A stretch of 64,000 bases of DNA from Parvicella tangerina (GTDB taxonomy: Bacteria; Bacteroidota; Bacteroidia; Flavobacteriales_D; Parvicellaceae): assembly GCF_907165195.1 (NCBI RefSeq), contig NZ_OU015584.1:2385291-2449290 (forward strand), read 5' to 3'. The notes beneath the pieces were generated by a model. That model was not told the origin of the DNA. It searched no databases and saw only the letters and a program-made list of their open reading frames with translations. Shown here in pieces: positions 2,064 through 19,200 of the stretch (the stretch's first letter is position 1; every line of letters begins with the position of its first letter). A program made the position numbers and the translations under genes.

Positions 2064-3863
2064 TTAATAACAGTAAGCACCTTTCTCAATCAGTTTAAGC
2101 GCAATTCTTTGTCTTGCTTCTTTCGCGTTGAAAGGCTCATGCTTTGTGAAACGCTTCAATCCCATCATCATCATTCTTAGTTCATCTCCCTCTGTGAAGG
2201 CATTCAATGCGTCTTTACCAGCCTTGTTGATCATATCACACATGTCATAGATCAAAACTCTCATCATATCTAATTGCTCAGTACAAGCATCCTCTCCTTT
2301 GATCGAAACCATTTTTTCTACTCTCAATTGCGTAGATTCTGCAACGTAAATCCATGTTGCCATATCTGCAATATTCATCACAATCTCTTGCTCCTTAACT
2401 AGTTTCTCTTGAATTTTCTGAGCAGCCGTACCTGCAATCATCAATAAAGCCTTCTTAAAATTCTTGATGTACTTTTTCTCTGCGGCAAATAACGTGTCAT
2501 CTGGAGCACCAAAATCAGGAATACTCATCAACTCATTTCCTACAGCCATTGCTGGTCCGATAAGATCAAGCTCTCCTTTCATTGCTTTTCTTAAGATCAT
2601 ACTCACCGTCAACATTCTATTGATCTCGTTCGTACCCTCAAAAATCCTATTGATTCTTGCATCTCTATAAGCTCTTTCAATATTCGTTTCAGCAGAGTAT
2701 CCCATACCTCCATGAATTTGAACACCTTCATCCACTACATAATCCAGCGTATCTGAACCATATACTTTCAGAATAGCACACTCAGGAGCAAATTGCTCAA
2801 TCCCTTTCAATGTTGCCTCTCCTTTATCCATACCACTTTCGACAAGTGCCTGAATAGCTTCATCGATGTTCGCTCCAGCTCTATACGTAGCAGACTCCGT
2901 TGCAAACGTTCTGATACATTGCTCTGCTAACTTATGTCTTATAGCTCCGTACTTCGAAATAGGTCTTCCAAACTGTTCTCTTTCGTTTGCATATTTCACA
3001 GATTCCGTCACAGATTCTTTTGCACCTCCCATTACACCAGCTCCTAACTTAATACGACCAATGTTAAGGATATTCACGGCAATCTTAAATCCTTTACCTC
3101 TCTCGTACAATTGGTTTTCCTTAGGAATTTTAACATCATTAAAGAACACCTGACGAGTAGAAGATCCTTTAATACCCATCTTTTTCTCTTCAGGATTTAA
3201 AGAAACTCCTTCTGTATCCGCCTCTACGATAAATGCTGTTAGATTTTCATCATCATCAATTTTAGCAAAAACCGTTAGCACATCTGCAAAACCTGCATTG
3301 GTAATCCACATTTTTTGTCCGTTGATAATCCAATGATTTCCATCGTCAGATAATTTAGCTGTGGTTTTACCGCTGTTTGCATCTGAACCAGCTGAAGGCT
3401 CTGTTAAGCAATAGGAAGCTTTCCATTCTCCTGAAGCTAACTTAGGAATGTACTTTTTCTTTTGTTCCTCGTTACCGTAGTATAAAATAGGTAACGTTCC
3501 AATCCCCGTGTGCGCACCATACGCAACCGAGAAAGAATGACCAGGTCCTAATGCTTCCGTAGCAAGCAGAGAAGTTGGGAAATCCACCCCCATTCCACCT
3601 AACTCTTCAGGTACTGAAAGACCAAGAAGGCCTAGCTCACCAGCTTTCTCCATTAGTTTAGGCATTAATTCAGGATCACTCATGCTATCAATAGCATCCA
3701 AATGCGGATGAACTTCTGCTTTTAGGAAGTCTTTACACATTTGAGCAATCATTTTTTGCTCTTCCGACCACTGCTCTGGGATAAATATTTCTTGAGCATC
3801 TGTATCTCTGATGATAAACTCACCGCCTTTAATTGCCGACTTTTTTTCTGTTTCTGTTGACAT
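2064..3863 (-). CDS. fadE: acyl-CoA dehydrogenase, FadE type
   Basis: A 599-residue FAD-dependent acyl-CoA dehydrogenase catalysing the first step of beta-oxidation (acyl-CoA to trans-2-enoyl-CoA). The N-terminal helical domain is followed by the flavin-contact motif LTEPSAGSDANSG and WITNAGFADV (about residues 150-195). The helical C-domain carries QIHGGMGYSAETNIER and RIFEGTNEINR, where the Glu of FEGT is the expected catalytic base. About 160 residues beyond the usual 380-400 form an extra helical C-terminal domain, as in the B. subtilis FadE subgroup (about 594 residues). It is the last gene of a marR-fadN-fadA-fadE operon. The 148-base gap to the preceding four-helix-bundle gene is unusually long for this operon and contains short-period degenerate tracts. 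Confidence 0.93.
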   Translation of the reverse strand: MSTETEKKSAIKGGEFIIRDTDAQEIFIPEQWSEEQKMIAQMCKDFLKAEVHPHLDAIDSMSDPELMPKLMEKAGELGLLGLSVPEELGGMGVDFPTSLLATEALGPGHSFSVAYGAHTGIGTLPILYYGNEEQKKKYIPKLASGEWKASYCLTEPSAGSDANSGKTTAKLSDDGNHWIINGQKMWITNAGFADVLTVFAKIDDDENLTAFIVEADTEGVSLNPEEKKMGIKGSSTRQVFFNDVKIPKENQLYERGKGFKIAVNILNIGRIKLGAGVMGGAKESVTESVKYANEREQFGRPISKYGAIRHKLAEQCIRTFATESATYRAGANIDEAIQALVESGMDKGEATLKGIEQFAPECAILKVYGSDTLDYVVDEGVQIHGGMGYSAETNIERAYRDARINRIFEGTNEINRMLTVSMILRKAMKGELDLIGPAMAVGNELMSIPDFGAPDDTLFAAEKKYIKNFKKALLMIAGTAAQKIQEKLVKEQEIVMNIADMATWIYVAESTQLRVEKMVSIKGEDACTEQLDMMRVLIYDMCDMINKAGKDALNAFTEGDELRMMMMGLKRFTKHEPFNAKEARQRIALKLIEKGAYCY

Positions 3864-3870
3864 AGTTTTT

Positions 3871-3904
3871 GTTTTAAGACTTTTGATTCTTGACGTTTGA
3901 CGCT
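3871..3904. repeat. degenerate 7-8-base-period tract upstream of fadE
   Basis: On the minus strand this reads as loosely repeated units of 7-8 bases (GTCAAAC, GTCAAGA, ATCAAAA, GTCTTAA). It lies directly upstream of the fadE start, in the gap left between fadE and the four-helix-bundle gene. The repetition is imperfect and the tract is short, so chance cannot be excluded from this copy alone; comparable tracts flank both four-helix genes. Confidence 0.45.
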
Positions 3905-3983
3905 AGCTTACTTTCTAAGTTTATCTATCAAACCTCGAATCATTTTTTGGTTATTATTCAGTTTAGTATCAAATTTTTATCAA

Positions 3984-4020
3984 TTGATTTAACGACATAC
4001 GATGAATCGATCTAACGATT
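3984..4020. repeat. degenerate TCGTT/AACGA-rich tract at the 3' end of a four-helix-bundle gene
   Basis: The plus strand shows spaced variants of the word AACGA/ATCGA (AACGACATACGA, GAATCGATCTAACGATT). Related words occur in the opposite flank of the same gene at 4384-4413. The tract runs across the stop codon of the four-helix-bundle gene. Confidence 0.45.
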
Positions 4021-4377
4021 TTTTTCATCATGATTTAATTTTTCAATAAAATTCCAGATCATCCTTTGAACTTTATTGTTCAAATCTAGAACTTCATGAT
4101 CATCTTCCAAATAACCACACTTTACTGCTAACAGCAGTTGTGTTTCCATTTCAAAAGATGAACCCATCGCAATTCTTAAAAAACGAATAAAGTCTTTGGT
4201 TGATTTTCGTGAACTTCCTTCTGAAATATTTGAAGGTACAGAAACTGAAGCTCTTCTCAATTGAGAAGTCAAACCATATTTCTCATGATCAGGAAAGTCA
4301 CTACACACTGTATTCACTTGGTGAGCCAACTCCATACTTTCTTTCCATATTTTAAGTTCTCGAAAATTGTGCATCAA
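4012..4377 (-). CDS. four helix bundle protein (S23/IVP-like)
   Basis: A 121-residue protein of the four-helix-bundle family named after 23S rRNA intervening-sequence proteins. Family marks are FRELKIWKESMELAHQVN at the N-terminus, GLTSQLRRASVSVPSNISEG in the middle and FIRFLRIAMGSSFEMETQL after it. It is all helical with no signal peptide. Relatives include Avd, the accessory protein of diversity-generating retroelements, but no reverse transcriptase is present here and no molecular role is established for the free-standing family. It is inserted between fadA and fadE, whose products have no known need for it. A second, clearly diverged member lies between fadN and fadA. The flanks consist of repetitive A+T-rich tracts. 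Confidence 0.9.
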   Translation of the reverse strand: MMHNFRELKIWKESMELAHQVNTVCSDFPDHEKYGLTSQLRRASVSVPSNISEGSSRKSTKDFIRFLRIAMGSSFEMETQLLLAVKCGYLEDDHEVLDLNNKVQRMIWNFIEKLNHDEKNR

Positions 4378-4383
4378 TCAAAG

Positions 4384-4413
4384 AATCGTTTATCGAAAAA
4401 TCGTTTAATCGTA
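4384..4413. repeat. ATCGTTT-repeat tract upstream of a four-helix-bundle gene
   Basis: The plus strand carries ATCGTTTATCG followed after five bases by ATCGTTTAATCG, a near-repeat spanning most of the 36-base gap between this gene and fadA. Similar words recur at the far side of the gene (3984-4020), so the gene is bracketed by the same kind of sequence. Confidence 0.5.
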
Positions 4414-5589
4414 TTAAAGTAATTCAAAGATTCCAGCAGCACCCTGACCTGTTCCTACACACATAGAAACGATTCCGTGCTTTTGGTCTCTCTTCTTCAT
4501 TTCATTCAATAGTTGAACGGTTAATTTCGCTCCTGTACAGCCAAGTGGGTGTCCCAATGCAATTGCTCCTCCGTTAACATTTACCAAGTTAGGATCAATG
4601 CCTAATTCTCTCACACAGGCTACAGCTTGAGAAGCAAATGCTTCATTGATCTCAAACTGTTCGATTTGATTTAGCTCCATCCCCGCTTTCTTAAGTGCTT
4701 TAGGAATTGCATATAGAGGTCCCATACCCATTACTTTTGGTTCAAGTCCTACTACACTGAAATTCACCAACCTCGCAATTGGCTCTACACCTAGCTCTTT
4801 TACCATTTCTTCTGACATCACCATTACGAATGCAGCTCCATCTGATGTTTGAGAAGAGTTACCTGCTGTCACTGTTCCTCCTTGAGCAAATACTGGACGT
4901 AGTTTTCCAAGTCCCTCTAACGTAGAAGCTCTTGGTCCTTCATCTGTATCTACAACGTATTCTCTTTCTTGTCTCTTTTCATTCTCGTCTAAGTAAACCT
5001 CTTTTACTGTAATCGGAACGATATCATCCTTAAACCTTCCTGAGGCATTTGCTGCCAGCGCTTTTTCTTGCGAGCTTAACGCAAACTTATCCTGATCCTC
5101 TCTACTTACATTGTAACGTTTAGCTACTTCTTCCGCTGTCAATCCCATACCCCAGTACCAATCTGGATGTTCTTTTCCAACTTTCGCGTTTGGAACAATT
5201 CTCCAACCACCAAAGGGCATTCCAGACATCACCTCAACTCCACCTGCGATAATACAATCGGCCGAACCTGAAGCAATCTGACTCGCTGCAATCGCAATCG
5301 TTTGAAGTCCTGATGAACAATATCTATTTACTGTCATTCCAGGTACGTTTTCTGAGTTCAGTCCCATCAACGAGATCATTCTACCAATGTTCAACCCTTG
5401 CTCTGCTTCAGGTGTAGCGTTCCCTACTATCACATCGTCAATTCTTTCTGGATCAAGATTTGGAAAATCTTTCATCAAATGTTTGACAACGTCCGCAGCC
5501 AAGTCATCTGGTCTTGTAAATCTGAACAATCCTCTAGGTGCTTTACCTACGGCTGTTCTATATCCTGCTACTATATATGCTGTTTTCAT
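4414..5589 (-). CDS. fadA: acetyl-CoA C-acyltransferase (3-ketoacyl-CoA thiolase)
   Basis: A 391-residue thiolase that cleaves 3-ketoacyl-CoA with CoA to release acetyl-CoA, the last step of beta-oxidation. The nucleophile Cys91 lies in NRYCSSGLQ; the active-site His is in NGGAIALGHPLGCTGA and the second Cys in CVGTGQGAAG near the C-terminus. FEINEAFA is also intact. Length is normal for the family. It sits between the two four-helix-bundle genes and downstream of fadN, reproducing the fadN-fadA-fadE order of B. subtilis if the insertions are ignored. All catalytic residues are present, so it should be active. Confidence 0.95.
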   Translation of the reverse strand: MKTAYIVAGYRTAVGKAPRGLFRFTRPDDLAADVVKHLMKDFPNLDPERIDDVIVGNATPEAEQGLNIGRMISLMGLNSENVPGMTVNRYCSSGLQTIAIAASQIASGSADCIIAGGVEVMSGMPFGGWRIVPNAKVGKEHPDWYWGMGLTAEEVAKRYNVSREDQDKFALSSQEKALAANASGRFKDDIVPITVKEVYLDENEKRQEREYVVDTDEGPRASTLEGLGKLRPVFAQGGTVTAGNSSQTSDGAAFVMVMSEEMVKELGVEPIARLVNFSVVGLEPKVMGMGPLYAIPKALKKAGMELNQIEQFEINEAFASQAVACVRELGIDPNLVNVNGGAIALGHPLGCTGAKLTVQLLNEMKKRDQKHGIVSMCVGTGQGAAGIFELL

Positions 5590-5599
5590 TTTTTGTTTA

Positions 5600-5632
5600 T
5601 TGTACTATGTATGCTGTAAATTGTACTTTGTA
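5600..5632. repeat. TTGTACT-repeat tract between fadA and a four-helix-bundle gene
   Basis: TTGTACTATGTA (5600-5611) recurs as TTGTACTTTGTA (5621-5632), 21 bases apart, with a related ATGCTGTAAA between, giving an underlying period of about 10.5. It lies in the 75-base gap between fadA and the second four-helix-bundle gene. Confidence 0.55.
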
Positions 5633-5664
5633 AAACTCACACCAACATAGTGGTTTGTAATTTA

Positions 5665-6015
5665 TTATTTCAACGTTGTTTGCAATTTATAAAGCATATT
5701 ATTAATCTTATTCAGTAGCTCGAGTAGTTCGGAGATTTCTCCTTCTTTAACAATCCCTATCTCAATAGACACATATAACAAAGACTCCACCTCGCTATTC
5801 GAACCTCTTGCAATTCCTAAAAAATGATAAAACTCTCCCTTGTTATTTCTTCCGGCTCCTTCAGCAATGTTTGCACTCACCGAGACCACAGCTCTTTGAA
5901 GTTGGGAACAAATACCAAACTTTTCTTCAGACGGAAAACTATTGGTCAGCTCATAAACAAGACCTGCCAACTTGATTGCCTCTTTCCAAACGTTTAGTTC
6001 TTTAAAGTTATTCAT
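5665..6015 (-). CDS. four helix bundle protein (S23/IVP-like), second copy
   Basis: A 116-residue member of the same family as the gene at 4012-4377, with the marks FKELNVWKEAIKLAGLVYEL, SQLQRAVVSVSANIAEGAGR and FYHFLGIARGSNSEVESLL. The two copies are clearly diverged in sequence, so this is not a recent local duplication. It is located between fadN and fadA, with 52 bases to fadN and 75 to fadA, both gaps holding short repetitive words. The start ATG is directly before the conserved NNFKEL. Function is unknown. Confidence 0.9.
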   Translation of the reverse strand: MNNFKELNVWKEAIKLAGLVYELTNSFPSEEKFGICSQLQRAVVSVSANIAEGAGRNNKGEFYHFLGIARGSNSEVESLLYVSIEIGIVKEGEISELLELLNKINNMLYKLQTTLK

Positions 6016-6025
6016 TCTTCTGTAT

Positions 6026-6081
6026 TAACGCTTTATACATTTTACGTAAGACGTTTTACATCAAACGTTAATTACGTAAAA
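6026..6081. repeat. ACGTTTTAC-type degenerate tract at the fadN 3' end
   Basis: Overlapping variants of TTTACGT/ACGTAAA occur on the plus strand: TTTTACGTAAGACG, ACGTTTTACATC, AACGTTAATTACGTAAAAC. The tract spans the gap between fadN and the second four-helix-bundle gene and runs about 14 bases into the fadN coding end, so it may have altered the last codons of fadN. Confidence 0.5.
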
Positions 6082-8455
6082 CTTTACCTGTCGTTAAGAT
6101 GCTCTGGATTCTCTCCAATGTTTTCTTTTCAGTACAAAGTTCCAAGAAAGCTCTTCTTTCAAGATCTAGTAAATACTGTTCAGAAACTTCAGTTGGATGA
6201 GAGAGATCACCTCCGCACATTACGTATCCCAACTTCTCTGAGATCAACTTATCGTGCTCTGAAATGTAGTTTCCACTCCACATTGAGTTTGCACCAACAT
6301 ATACGATTCCAAGACCTTCGTTTCCGTAAACCTTAATGTCTTTTCTTTTAGCTGGTTGCTGATATCCTTTATTCGCCATATTCAGACAAACTTGTTTTGC
6401 ATAAGCTAATTGGTGAGCTCGAGATACTACCACCTCATCAATCCCTTCTCTGTAGTAACCTAGTTCAAACGCCTCGTAAGCTGAAGTCGCAACTTTTGCC
6501 TGTCCTACAGTTAGGAATCTATTCCTTAAGTTGTTGATTCTAATATCTCCTTCTTTCAGATCATCGTGGTTTCGTACAGCAAACTCTTTGGTTCCTCCAC
6601 CTCCTGGGATCAATCCAACACCAAATTCAACTAACCCAGTATAGGTTTCCGCATGAGCAATCACTTTGTCTGCGTGAAGAGTCATCTCACATCCACCTCC
6701 TAGTGCGAGGTTATGTGGAGCGACAATTACAGGGATCGAAGAATATCTCAATCTCATCATGGTGTTTTGGAAAGCCCTTATCGCAAAGTCTAACTCATCA
6801 TACTCCTGCTCTACTGCCATCATAAAAATCATTCCGACATTTGCTCCAGCAGAAAAGTTCTCCCCTTCGTTAGAAATCACTACTCCTTTATACTCTTCCT
6901 CTTGCTCAGCAAGATCAATCGCTTTATTAATTCCTTGAAGAACTCCTCCTCCAATGGTATTCATCTTCGTGTGAAATTCAACATTCAAGATGCCATCCCC
7001 CAAGTGAATGATATGAACATCTTGATTTTCCCAAACCGTATTGGTTTCTCTTAAGTTAGCCAAAGAAACTAGTTCTTCCGTTCCTGGAATTACTTTGTAC
7101 TCGCCTGACTCAAGATCGTAGTATTTCTTGTTACCATCTTCCAATTTATAGAAAGAAGTAACACCTTTATCCTTCATGTCATAAACAAACTGGGCTGGTT
7201 TTTTACCCATTTCTTCCATGATAGCGATTACCTTCTCAAATCCAATTGCGTCCCACGTTTCGAATGGTCCCATTTCCCACCCAAATCCGGCTTTCAATGC
7301 TTCATCAATCTTGTACAGTTCATCCGATATTTCAGGAATTCTATTCGTTACATACTGGAATACTCCTGTGAAAACACTTCTGTAAAAATCACCTGCATTA
7401 TCTTTTCCCGAGAAAAGGATTTTTGTTCTTTTCTTAAGATCTGTCTCAAGTTTAGCTGCTTCTAAGGTTGCAAACTTCACTTTTTTCTTTGAACGGTACT
7501 CTAATGTTTCTAAATCCAAAACCAGAATCTCTGATTTACCATTCTCGTCTTTTACTTTCTTGTAAAAACCTTGTTTAGACTTAGATCCTAACCATCCTTT
7601 CTCAACCATTTTTTCTACATAAGAAGGGATCTTGAAGACTTCTCTTCTTTCGTCATTTGGACAGTTATCTTTTACGCCATTAGCCACGTGAACCAACGTA
7701 TCCAAACCAACTACATCACATGTTCTGAAGGTAGCTGATTTTGGTCTACCCATTACAGGTCCTGTTAACTTATCGACTTCCTCAACTGTTAGCCCCATAT
7801 CCGTTACGGTATGGAAAAGATCTTGAATGGCATAAACTCCTACTCTATTTGCAATAAAGGCTGGTGTGTCTTTACATAAAACAGTTGTTTTACCTAGAAC
7901 CTTAGCTCCATAATCCATCACAAAGTCAATGGCAGACTGATCCGTCTTTGGAGTAGGAATAATTTCCAATAATTTCAGATACCTTGGAGGGTTAAAGAAG
8001 TGCGTTCCGAAGAAGTTCTTTTGAAAATCTTCACTTCTTCCTTCTAGCATCATATGGATTGGAATACCTGATGTATTTGATGTAATCAATGTACCTGGCT
8101 TTCTGTGTTTTTCCACGTTTTCGAAAACGATCTTTTTAATATCGAGACGTTCTACAACCACCTCTATTACCCAATCAGCATCGGCAATATCTTTCATGTT
8201 GTCGGTCATATTACCCGTAGTAATACGAGAAGTAAATGATTTACTGTAGATGGGTGAAGGATTTGATTTCAAGGCTGATTTCAGGGCATCATCTACTAAT
8301 TTATTTCTTGCAGCAGGGTCTTTACTGTCTTCTGCCTCTTTTGGCACGATATCCAAAAGCAACACTTCACAGCCAACATTTGCAAAATGGCAAGCAATTC
8401 TTGATCCCATTACACCGGAACCTAAGACTGCTACCTTTCTAATACTTCGCTTCAT
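6068..8455 (-). CDS. fadN: 3-hydroxyacyl-CoA dehydrogenase / enoyl-CoA hydratase, FadN type
   Basis: A 795-residue bifunctional enzyme for the two middle steps of beta-oxidation. The NAD-binding dehydrogenase comes first (VAVLGSGVMGSRIACHFANV near residue 10, then GTHFFNPPRYLKLLEI with the catalytic His). The enoyl-CoA hydratase domain is C-terminal (about residues 480-690), with LALGGGCEMTLHAD and GLVEFGVGLIPGGGGT carrying both expected catalytic Glu. This order is the reverse of E. coli FadB/FadJ and matches B. subtilis FadN (about 789 residues). It lies 17 bases downstream of the MarR gene, so the two are very probably cotranscribed. Catalytic residues are complete. Confidence 0.93.
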   Translation of the reverse strand: MKRSIRKVAVLGSGVMGSRIACHFANVGCEVLLLDIVPKEAEDSKDPAARNKLVDDALKSALKSNPSPIYSKSFTSRITTGNMTDNMKDIADADWVIEVVVERLDIKKIVFENVEKHRKPGTLITSNTSGIPIHMMLEGRSEDFQKNFFGTHFFNPPRYLKLLEIIPTPKTDQSAIDFVMDYGAKVLGKTTVLCKDTPAFIANRVGVYAIQDLFHTVTDMGLTVEEVDKLTGPVMGRPKSATFRTCDVVGLDTLVHVANGVKDNCPNDERREVFKIPSYVEKMVEKGWLGSKSKQGFYKKVKDENGKSEILVLDLETLEYRSKKKVKFATLEAAKLETDLKKRTKILFSGKDNAGDFYRSVFTGVFQYVTNRIPEISDELYKIDEALKAGFGWEMGPFETWDAIGFEKVIAIMEEMGKKPAQFVYDMKDKGVTSFYKLEDGNKKYYDLESGEYKVIPGTEELVSLANLRETNTVWENQDVHIIHLGDGILNVEFHTKMNTIGGGVLQGINKAIDLAEQEEEYKGVVISNEGENFSAGANVGMIFMMAVEQEYDELDFAIRAFQNTMMRLRYSSIPVIVAPHNLALGGGCEMTLHADKVIAHAETYTGLVEFGVGLIPGGGGTKEFAVRNHDDLKEGDIRINNLRNRFLTVGQAKVATSAYEAFELGYYREGIDEVVVSRAHQLAYAKQVCLNMANKGYQQPAKRKDIKVYGNEGLGIVYVGANSMWSGNYISEHDKLISEKLGYVMCGGDLSHPTEVSEQYLLDLERRAFLELCTEKKTLERIQSILTTGKVLRN

Positions 8456-8472: not shown

Positions 8473-8907
8473 TTAGTTAAAAATTTTATTTTCGTCTATT
8501 ATTTCATTCACTTTAGATAGCACTTCGAATGTAGTTTTTAAATCCTCTTGTGGTATGGCCTCATAAACTTTTTCATTAAAACTTAACACCACCTTCTTCG
8601 CTATATCACGCTTTTCTTTTCCCTTTCTGGTCAAAAACAACTTGACTAATCTTTTGTCCTGATCATCCAACCGCTTTTTGATATAACCATTCTCTTCTAG
8701 TGCTTTGATCATCCTTGTTAGACTGCGTGGCTCCATCCCCATCTTCGGAGCCAACTTGGTACTTGGAGTTCCTTCTTCATCAATACTGAGAAGCGCGTAC
8801 CCCATTGCCATTGACCCTCCAAAATCACTCGCCTTAGCATTATACATCCTTGAGATGTTATACCATGCCCATCGTATATGAAAATCTATCGACTCCTCTG
8901 GTCTCAT
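8473..8907 (-). CDS. MarR family regulator, probable regulator of the fad operon
   Basis: A 144-residue winged-helix regulator. Helix-turn-helix and wing are recognisable in PSTKLAPKMGMEPRSLTRMI followed by KRLDDQDKRLVKLFLTRKG (about residues 55-105), flanked by dimerisation helices at both ends. It is the first gene of the fad operon, and two copies of a palindromic 18-base element lie 43 bases and more upstream of its start. Inference: it represses itself and fadNAE and is released by acyl-CoA or fatty acids, a job done by the TetR-type FadR in Bacillus. The ligand cannot be read from sequence. Confidence 0.88.
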   Translation of the reverse strand: MRPEESIDFHIRWAWYNISRMYNAKASDFGGSMAMGYALLSIDEEGTPSTKLAPKMGMEPRSLTRMIKALEENGYIKKRLDDQDKRLVKLFLTRKGKEKRDIAKKVVLSFNEKVYEAIPQEDLKTTFEVLSKVNEIIDENKIFN

Positions 8908-16200: not shown

Positions 16201-19200
16201 CACGATTGACAATATCTCAGCAACGCTTGGTTCTTTCTATAGTGACGTAACACTTACAGCCTCATTCACCAATGGGTTTAGCGGTTTCGGAGCTGGTATT
16301 TACAACGTTACTACCGTAACCGTAACACATACTGCATCTGGAGTTGACCCGCAGTGTAACGGGGCTTCTGATGGAAGTATCACCTTCACACCTTCAGGAG
16401 GAACTGGTCCTTACGAATTCTCCGTAGATGGAGGAGCTACCTGGACTTCTTCAAACCCTGTCACAGGTCTGGCAGGTGGAACCTACTCAACAGTAGTTCG
16501 TGATGCTGGACTGAATCAATCAACACCCGTTTCAATAACGCTTACTGATCCCGCTGCAATAAACATGAGCTCCTCTGCAACCAATCCTAACTGTTCTTCT
16601 GGAACTGGATCAATCACTGTCACAGCTTCGGGAGGAACAGGAACGCTGCAGTACAGTATTGATGGTGGATCTACCTTCCAAGCAGGAGGATCATTTACTG
16701 GACTAGCATCTGGGACATATAACATCGTAGTAGAGGATGTAAACGGTTGTCAGGCTACTGGTTCTGAATCAATCGCTATCCCTACTGCAATAAACATGAG
16801 CTCTTCTGCAACCAGCCCTAACTGTTCTTCAGGAACTGGATCAATCACTGTCACAGCTTCGGGAGGAACAGGATCGCTGCAGTACAGTATTGATGGTGGA
16901 TCTACCTTCCAAGCGGGAGGATCATTTACAGGACTAGCATCTGGCACATATAACATCGTAGTAGAGGACGCAAACAATTGTCAGGCTACTGGTTCTGAAT
17001 CAATTACTATCCCTACTGCAGTTACTGTTTCGTCTTCATCAACAGTAGAGAATTGCGGAAACAATGATGGAAGTATAACTATCTCTGCAAGCGGTGGCAC
17101 AGGAGCTATACAATATAGTATTAATGGAGGATCTTCATTTTTACCTGCAAATACTTTTAACTCTCTAGCCAGTGGTACTTACAATATCGTTGTTGAGGAT
17201 GCAAACGGCTGTCAAGCATCAACTACAGAAACTATCGGATTAAATACAGGACCAACAATAACATCGGTTTCTGATACTGACCCTACTTGTTTTGGGGGTA
17301 ATAATGGCTCCATTACATTCTCTGCTGCTGGAGTGGGAACACTACAGTACAGTATCAACGGTGGATCAAGCTGGCAACCATCAAACAATTTCACAGGTCT
17401 TTCCTCTGGAACGTACAATCTTCTTATTCAAGACGGAGCAGGGTGTCAACTAAATGTAGGTACGCTCACGCTTAATGATCCGAGTCAAATTACCTATACG
17501 GCTTCGTCTACAAATGAGATTTGTGGTAACGGAGATGGAACCTTAACACTAACAGCTGCCGGAGGTTCGGGGAGCTTACAGTATAGTATTGATGGTGGAA
17601 CATCATTCCAGTCTGGAAACTCCTTTAGCAGTCTGTCAGCGGGTAATTATAATATCGTGATACAGGATGCTTTAGGTTGTCAAACTTCTGGAACTGAGAA
17701 TATCGGATCAACTGGAGGTCCTACTATATCTAATGAAACAAGTACAGATATCACTTGTAGCGGATCAACAGATGGTACGATCACCATTACTGCTTCTGGA
17801 ACTGGAACATTGATGTATAGCATCGATGGTGGATCAAGCTTCTCAGCCACAAGTACGTTTACAGGCCTCCCAACAGGGGCTTATGATATCGTTGTGCAAG
17901 ATGGCAATAGTTGTGTGACGAACGGCTCTACGATTACATTATCCTCTCCTTCAGCAGTAACTTACACAGCCACGGTGACAGATGCTTCTTGTGGTGGAAG
18001 TGATGGAGAAATTGTTCTCGCTGGTTCAGGAGGTGATGGATCATATCAGTATAGTATCAATGGAGGATCCACATTTCAATCAGGAGGTACTTTCTCTGGT
18101 TTGTCAACAGGATCTTATAATATCGTTGTGCAAGATGGATCTTTGTGTGAAGGAATAGGTACGACATCTGTTGGATCTACAAGTGGTCCTTCTATTTCTA
18201 ATGAATCAAGTACTGATGTGAGTTGTAACGGTGCGGCCGATGGTTCAATTAACATCTCTGCGACAGGAGTTGCTCCCCTTGAATACAGTATTGACGGAGG
18301 TAGCAATTATTCAACGACCAGTTCATTCACAGGACTATCCGGAGGAAACTACTCTGTTACTGTAAGAGATGGTAATGGCTGCGTGACCAATGGTAGTATA
18401 ATCAACATAAATGAAGATGCTGCGATCACCTATGTTGCCAACATTTCGGATGCAACGTGTGGGAATAATAATGGAACGATTACCATAACCGCTTCTGGTG
18501 GTGTTGGGTCATACCAATACAGTATTGATGGAGGTAGTTCATTTCAGTCTTCAGGAATATTTTCTGGTATAGGAAGCAACTCCTACAACATTGTTGTTGA
18601 AGATGGCAACTCATGCCAGACTACGGGTATTGAAACGGTGAATAACGTTGGAGGACCATCTATTACAAGTGAAACGGCAACTGATATTAGTTGTAACGGA
18701 GCTAACGATGGTACTATCTCAGTTGTGGCAACTGGTACAGCTACATTAGAATATAGTATCGATGGCGGAACAACTTTCGGAACTTCAAGTCTATTTTCAG
18801 GGCTCAGTGCAGGCACCTACAACGTTGTTGTTAGAGACGGTAACAGCTGTACAACATCTGGTACAACACTGACCATTTCTAACCCCGCTTCCATTATTTA
18901 TTCAGCATCTGTTTCTGATGCATCGTGTGGAAGTAGTAACGGAAGCATCACCATTTCCGCATCTGGAGGAACAGGATCTCTTCAATACAGTATTGACGGA
19001 GGCAGTTCATTCCAATCAGGAGGAAACTTTTCTGGATTAGGCACGGGCACATACAATATTGTTGTAGAAGACGCTAATGGTTGTCAAATAAATGGAACTG
19101 AATCTGTAGGTTCTACTAGTGGTCCATCAATTACGAATGAGGTATTTACAGATATCACCTGTAATGGAGATGATGACGGAACTATTACGATATCAGCCTC

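Follow-up and report, generated by a model that had tools for sequence, protein, structure and literature searches.

In a stretch of 64,000 nucleotides (nt) of the Parvicella tangerina genome (contig NZ_OU015584.1, positions 2,385,291 to 2,449,290; the window), the beta-oxidation operon marR-fadN-fadA-fadE contains two small genes of the PF05635 family (23S_rRNA_IVP / S23; hereafter IVP genes), one after fadN and one after fadA. Each of these genes, together with the two repeat tracts that flank it, is probably a copy of a small mobile element that resembles the intervening sequences (IVSs) of ribosomal genes and resides in operon messages, not in rRNA. The element starts with an upstream arm, rich in G and about 4-5 heptamers long, continues with an IVP/S23 open reading frame (ORF) and closes with a complementary downstream arm, for a total of ~430-490 bp from the stop codon of the preceding gene to the start codon of the next one. 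Across the family we observed a period of 7 nt, a potential for pairing between the arms, a strand polarity, a variable presence with one exact empty site, and copies that are decayed or devoid of ORF. The family, also annotated as S23 or ‘four helix bundle protein’, is common and has no assigned function; IVSs, for their part, are regarded as oddities of ribosomal RNA.

All the genes of the operon lie on the minus strand, in the order given by the original prediction, which had been made from the letters of the window alone (marR at 8473-8907; other coordinates in Table 1). This prediction had also announced one four-helix-bundle gene after fadN and another after fadA. Both indeed belong to PF05635 (123.6 and 123.5 bits for a cut-off of 33.8), and no further domain was matched in the two proteins scanned. 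The protein encoded between fadN and fadA (IVP-B) matches the solved protein XCC0516 (PDB 2gsc, E 2.4e-19). Repeats were recovered at the flanks of both genes: Tandem Repeats Finder (TRF) gives one row at 6040-6082 (score 47) and one at 4384-4417 (score 31), the tract at 5583-5632 is the only one with a period of 7 scoring at least 9.5 within the window, and the 17-nt gap between marR and fadN contains no tract. The observation was therefore real, but misread, and its interpretation is supported in part. The short-period repeats exist, but their period at the level of the family is 7 and the two flanks of a gene tend to be complementary, as arms are. The tract said to enter the fadN stop region does reach the stop codon, but FadN is unaltered: its last residues are LRN in each of the 29 loci read, whether or not the junction carries an IVP gene. 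Finally, the tract near 3880-3907 is not the arm of the intact gene; it follows the remnant of a second IVP C-terminus. This remnant, located after the stop codon of gene A, matches the C-terminus of the paralogue found at the ssb site (76% over 17 residues, E 6e-7 for a 148-nt stretch) with 28.5 bits, vs. a maximum of 25.0 among 200 shuffles. The junction between fadA and fadE was apparently struck at least twice, unless a recent element took the place of most of its predecessor.

We then searched for other copies. Nine PF05635 genes above the cut-off were found in the 3.98-Mb genome, and the same search gave no match in 14 control genomes. All contexts were read: the nine copies each lie between two protein genes having the copy's own direction, i.e. 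sdhA and sdhB, fadN and fadA, fadA and fadE, hemB and hemL, cysD and cysN, two CoA-transferase subunits, two ssb-like genes, miaB and a sigma-54 regulator, and an SRPBCC-like gene and a thiolase (outside the fad operon, these names are our own reading of the translations). A wider set comprises 171 distinct elements, of which 156 were scored intact with both neighbours; a copy counts as intact when 300 nt or more separate its predicted start from the first stop in frame, so that frameshifted copies (e.g. L021) can pass. Among these 156 elements, 140 are co-directional with both neighbours (the remaining configurations number 7, 5 and 4), vs. 138 out of 250 control gene triplets of the same loci. 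The search of genome contigs gave at least 589 stretches, 585 of them confirmed, from which we retained the 80 that most resemble IVP-B; because of this choice, the 80-locus set leans to fad operons. The 32 loci fetched from viral contigs were excluded from every count, and phage records gave no IVP match. No Rfam match was obtained in 11 other loci picked for their odd neighbours.

IVP genes are present in 27 of the 60 genomes searched in the order of P. tangerina (its own genome counted) and in 135 of 150 sampled Flavobacterium genomes (E 1e-10, one IVP query). Seven named genomes hold 2 to 10 copies each. In addition, 23 plasmid records carry an IVP gene, 21 of them cyanobacterial. In both strains of Flavobacterium columnare described in PMC5524665, a four helix bundle gene lies in predicted phage regions between the genes encoding guanylate kinase and nicotinate-nucleotide adenylyltransferase, and shows the same habit of standing between genes.

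The periodicity of the flanks was measured by autocorrelation in 108 intergenic regions (IGRs) adjoining IVP genes. Peaks were found at lags 7, 14, 21 and 28 (z = 30, 22, 15 and 5, respectively), no other lag from 2 to 27 exceeding 1.03 observed/expected, while control IGRs of the same loci gave a weaker peak (z = 12 at lag 7). From the 140 co-directional intact elements, 120 entered a period-7 shuffle test, 127 the determination of stem ends with RNAduplex and 69 an arm swap test. A period of 7 beats 20 shuffles in 158 of 240 flanks and a period of 8 in 50, vs. 4 to 16 flanks for periods 4-6 and 9-12, where ~11 are expected. The tracts are thus more repetitive than shuffled sequence across the family. 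Moreover, they are polar: G exceeds C in 51 of 54 upstream tracts and C exceeds G in 42 of 45 downstream tracts (control co-directional IGRs for this polarity: 53 and 84). Tracts scoring at least 9 have a median of 4.57 units (interquartile range 4.3-5.2) and occur in 119 of 266 IVP flanks vs. 34 of 220 control IGRs, many of these 34 being, by eye, heptamer hairpins without an IVP gene. In 12 plasmid loci of the cyanobacterial set (out of 23 hits), the same score is reached by 10 upstream and 6 downstream tracts, often with perfect units. The positions of the heptamer are unequally conserved (67 of 94 tracts above the null); the idea of a ‘contact triplet’ was dropped, as contiguous triplets are not favoured (39 of the 94 tracts).

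In random 20-kb samples from the same order as P. tangerina, heptamer tracts are rare: 399 kb from genomes scored IVP-free yielded 2, 188 kb from ten other genomes with IVP genes yielded 1, and 80 kb of its own genome yielded 0. One genome (G054) stands apart with 38 tracts in the 80 kb sampled, all of them more than 400 nt away from any IVP gene, and with dense arrays of many heptamer words and their complementary partners (L283, 7000-19000; L284, 1389-1803 and 12450-16850). As the arrays are rare in most samples and dense in G054, IVP presence alone does not set their number. We also considered whether solo heptamer arrays and IVP presence are linked across whole genomes, and no firm link emerged from the samples of this order and of Flavobacterium. 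In the latter, 2 tracts were found in 200 kb scored IVP-free vs. 6 in 164 kb away from IVP genes, several stretches of these 164 kb having been picked near IVP hits and one genome scored IVP-free (L250) holding an IVP gene according to tblastn.

The two flanks of an IVP gene tend to be reverse complements of each other, and the tracts are therefore arms and not independent repeats. In the arm swap test, performed on 69 representatives sharing <60% IVP identity, own arms scored 43.1 on average vs. 26.5 for permuted arms (standard deviation (sd) 0.77; best of 5000 permutations 29.8), and they ranked first in 23 of 69 rows, for ~1 expected. We also compared the duplex formed by 100-nt flanks with dinucleotide shuffles, using 70 of the 80 loci: z is below -2 in 41 of 70 IVP genes vs. 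28 of 214 control genes, below -3 in 36 vs. 15 and below -4 in 21 vs. 5. A clear stem was identified in 36 of 69 elements. It begins a median of 1 nt past the upstream stop codon and finishes 10 nt before the next start codon. Out of some 490 nt, ~10.5 thus fall outside the stem, a distance close to that seen at empty junctions. These ends come from a stricter aligner, since those given by RNAduplex had extended into coding sequence. For one plasmid insert, the predicted fold closes with ~34 pairs around the ORF (z = -8.2). Within the genome of P. tangerina, arm complementarity reaches p < 0.03 in 6 of the 9 copies, and element A of the window, between fadA and fadE, is supported individually (p 0.0115). 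The copy between hemB and hemL is not (p 0.29), and the test was unfair to the miaB locus (p 0.63), whose inverted repeat lies >90 nt upstream of the ATG, outside the test window. The suggestion that each insertion came with its own repeat type was roughly right, as arm words match within one element and differ between elements, with a partial sharing at different sites when the IVPs are at least 55% identical (51.7 vs. 40.1). One locus (L066) departs from the usual inverted arms, as its flanks resemble direct repeats that are almost identical; the computed duplex of the upstream flank with the reversed downstream flank reaches -110.6 kcal/mol. In another (L307), the gene that follows the IVP gene is annotated as starting inside the downstream arm (2361-2413), whereas in relatives this gene starts later.

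Presence and absence were read in 30 fadA loci (L016 of P. tangerina and 29 relatives), fadN being readable in 29. Eight junctions between fadN and fadA carry an IVP gene and measure 428-620 nt, stop codon through start codon, whereas 20 of the 21 IVP-free junctions measure 9-41 nt. The last one (L044, 116 nt), without IVP match, may be a remnant. Relatives thus do not all keep these genes, even within the genus: both junctions are filled in L017 and one in L018, and L021 has two copies whose matches are broken into pieces. At the fadA-fadE junction of L018, a 135-nt hairpin region without ORF was found. An exact empty site was identified for an operon of Trichormus variabilis ATCC 29413 plasmid C (L313): six records (three read) are 97.5-98.0% identical and 428 bases shorter over the span. 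Tolypothrix PCC 7712 (L319) is empty. In two empty records, a 5-bp overlap (GTAAT), which includes the host stop codon, is shared with both ends of the element, suggesting a staggered cut. The same site in Nostoc C052 retains heptamers and, judged by eye, the beginning of an IVP gene. Six more sites with an empty allele were read: the traM gene, nrdA/B (element antisense), a site between hypothetical genes, an integrase site, cas10-cmr3 and an insertion inside the last codons of a host gene. In Nostoc ATCC 53789, the traM site is occupied by a hairpin of heptamers that lacks an ORF (z = -6.4). The insertion into the fad operon and the mobility proposed at the outset are supported by IVP-free junctions of normal length, the plasmid site, a decayed copy and the remnant in the window.

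On the basis of these sequences, the host operon would transcribe the IVP ORF, and the two arms would pair in the mRNA and loop out some 480 nt, bringing the upstream stop codon and the downstream start codon back to roughly 10 nt from each other. As this folding would restore the stop-start spacing, an insertion would be nearly harmless in a busy operon. By analogy with rRNA IVSs, RNase III may cut the stem. The likely role of the IVP protein, of which a crystallised relative is pentameric, is to recognise the arms of heptamers in the service of the element; that it moves the element in an Avd-like partnership with another enzyme may be entertained as a thought. Slippage would at most be the way in which arms gain or lose 7-nt units.

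Several results weigh against this reading of the elements as mobile stem-loops of operon messages. The similarity between flanks is also above permutation in direct orientation, although less so (34.2 vs. 29.6, sd 0.72), and we do not claim that the inverted similarity is the only kind present. By our rule, 33 of 69 elements have no clear stem, and in the window the arms of element B, between fadN and fadA, are not significant when taken alone (p 0.37). In 12 Flavobacterium orthologs, covariation showed no excess over shuffles, with changes in both partners of a single pair. Pairing of the stem amounts to 81.7%, vs. 32.0-43.3% when slid by 1-3 columns. In these orthologs constraint is seen on the protein and on the sequence, and pairing is not proven by covariation. 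A candidate target-site duplication is clear at one of the seven sites read, the other six being too diverged or ambiguous. No recognisable nuclease or transposase was found in the element that would account for its movement. Finally, some cyanobacterial copies are antisense to the host operon, whose transcription cannot then make the protein.

These antisense copies would, together with the exact insertion and its 5-bp overlap, fit a transposition at the DNA level, and arms inverted at both ends are also what transposon ends look like. The heptamer arms could in that case be subterminal DNA binding sites for the IVP and a partner recombinase, and pairing in RNA would be incidental. We consider this possible though doubtful: arms match within a copy without being fixed between copies, the two proteins scanned are not transposases, and the sense bias (140 out of 156) and the G/C polarity point to the message, although selection for expression could also yield such a bias. 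It is unlikely that the IVP is a host regulator which binds the arms in mRNA, tunes the surrounding operon and is kept for the benefit of the host. Among the 12 Flavobacterium orthologs located between fadN and fadA, the median ratio of nonsynonymous to synonymous substitution rates (dN/dS) of the IVP is 0.11 (40 of 66 pairs usable), the protein being under purifying selection, and most columns of the downstream arm are invariant. This constraint and the repeated presence beside metabolic gene pairs would suit a regulator, but presence at the same junctions is scattered, some copies are broken (L021), and those found in plasmid transfer, CRISPR and integrase loci share no pathway.

The slippage-based system that the original prediction named beside a mobile one is not supported as the main idea, the tracts being polar, complementary arms. 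In this line, passive repeats would build up in loose intergenic DNA, with IVP genes merely adjoining them. Perfect arrays in G054 and in cyanobacteria do indicate unit-wise expansion, and heptamer hairpins without IVP gene exist, as in the control IGRs above. This explanation is nevertheless very improbable, given the matching of the arms, their polarity and the scarcity of tracts in the random samples of the order compared with IVP flanks (the thresholds of these two counts differ, 12 and 9, respectively).

The mobile stem-loop that we favour has a clear counterpart in the IVSs of 23S rRNA, which also exist in rRNA in versions without ORF. In Coxiella and Leptospira, an S23/IVP ORF is looped by complementary terminal arms, for a total size of ~430 nt as in our elements; the Coxiella IVS has a 28-bp stem and three tandem heptamers before the ORF, and is excised by RNase III, a feature that is only proposed for operon elements (PMC4990558). 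In our data, complementary terminal arms are found at the level of the family and, within the window, for element A and not significantly for element B. Unlike these IVSs, all nine copies of P. tangerina lie between protein genes and none inside a 23S rRNA gene. Miniature inverted-repeat transposable elements (MITEs) and small insertion sequences resemble IVP elements in being mobile units of small size, in having inverted ends and in occurring also in versions with internal deletions. Unlike insertion sequences, IVP elements contain no transposase (two ORFs scanned); in the loci read, the IVP gene is the single ORF that the arms enclose. Their terminal repeats, unlike those of insertion sequences and MITEs, are not a fixed sequence between copies. 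The four-helix-bundle fold is related to that of Avd, the accessory protein of diversity-generating retroelements (PMC10053308). Among the neighbours that were read, we saw neither a reverse transcriptase nor a template repeat, no genome-wide search having been made.

A last comparison concerns the heptanucleotide repeats of bacterial genomes, known in cyanobacteria under the name STRR. TAACTGA heptamers occur in Beggiatoaceae, cyanobacteria and Bacteroidetes with no evident transmission mechanism, and heptanucleotide repeats of cyanobacteria and Bacteroidota have no accepted binder or route of spread (MacGregor 2015, PMC4679880). Like our arms, they are tandem 7-nt units in intergenic DNA of these two phyla; unlike IVP elements, they are described as direct repeats without an IVP gene, and a term search of this article (PMC4679880) for four helix, S23, intervening and IVP gave no match. 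The shared anatomy ties the IVS/S23 family to these unexplained repeats and predicts an interaction between protein and repeat that can be tested. The S23 protein of Xanthomonas is described as a homopentamer of four-helix bundles (PMC4990558). We tentatively put forward, as a rather speculative idea, that the IVP is the missing protein partner of heptanucleotide repeats: on a single strand of RNA or DNA, its pentameric ring would read about five 7-nt units, each subunit taking one (cf. the median of 4.57 units per tract). If so, rRNA IVSs, IVP elements of mRNA and heptamer hairpins without ORF would make up a single superfamily of mobile stem-loops, distributed over different phyla, whose folding lets them disappear from the message of the host. 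In the literature searched, which left subscription journals and preprints largely outside its scope, we recognised no prior report of IVP elements in operon mRNA.

Table 1. Features of the fad operon of Parvicella tangerina and of its IVP elements (positions in the window)
Feature	Positions	Strand	Remarks
IVP gene B, 116 amino acids, PF05635	5665..6015	-	between fadN and fadA; E 5.4e-36
Element B upstream arm region, ACGTAAA-type words	6016..6067	-	fadN stop to IVP start; TRF row 6040-6082
Element B downstream arm region, GTAC/TTGTACT-type words	5590..5664	-	period-7 tract 5583-5632
IVP gene A, 120 amino acids, PF05635	4012..4374	-	between fadA and fadE; E 4.9e-36
Element A upstream arm, ACGATTAAACGATT words	4375..4413	-	TRF row 4384-4417; complementarity p 0.0115
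Element A downstream arm, ATCG words	3977..4022	-	overlaps the end of the IVP ORF; arm alignment
Older IVP gene remnant, ~22 C-terminal codons and stop	3908..3976	-	similarity to the ssb-site paralogue
Probable downstream arm of the older element, GTC-type words	3871..3907	-	ends at fadE start region; period-7 score 7.0, weak
Host gene fadN	6068..8455	-	C-terminus intact
Host gene fadA	4414..5589	-	
Host gene fadE	2064..3863	-	

In cyanobacterial plasmids, IVP genes were also observed within CRISPR operons (L309 and L315, between cas6 and cas4; L317 of Picosynechococcus PCC 7003, between cas10 and cmr3). Because related operons (L334 of Picosynechococcus PCC 7002) have no IVP gene, a ‘CRISPR-linked IVP’ may mean an insertion, and such genes may be there in passing without belonging to the CRISPR system. 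Elsewhere in the window, a 231-bp unit is present in two copies that are 94% alike (16554-17020), which might correspond to repeated domains of a large surface protein.

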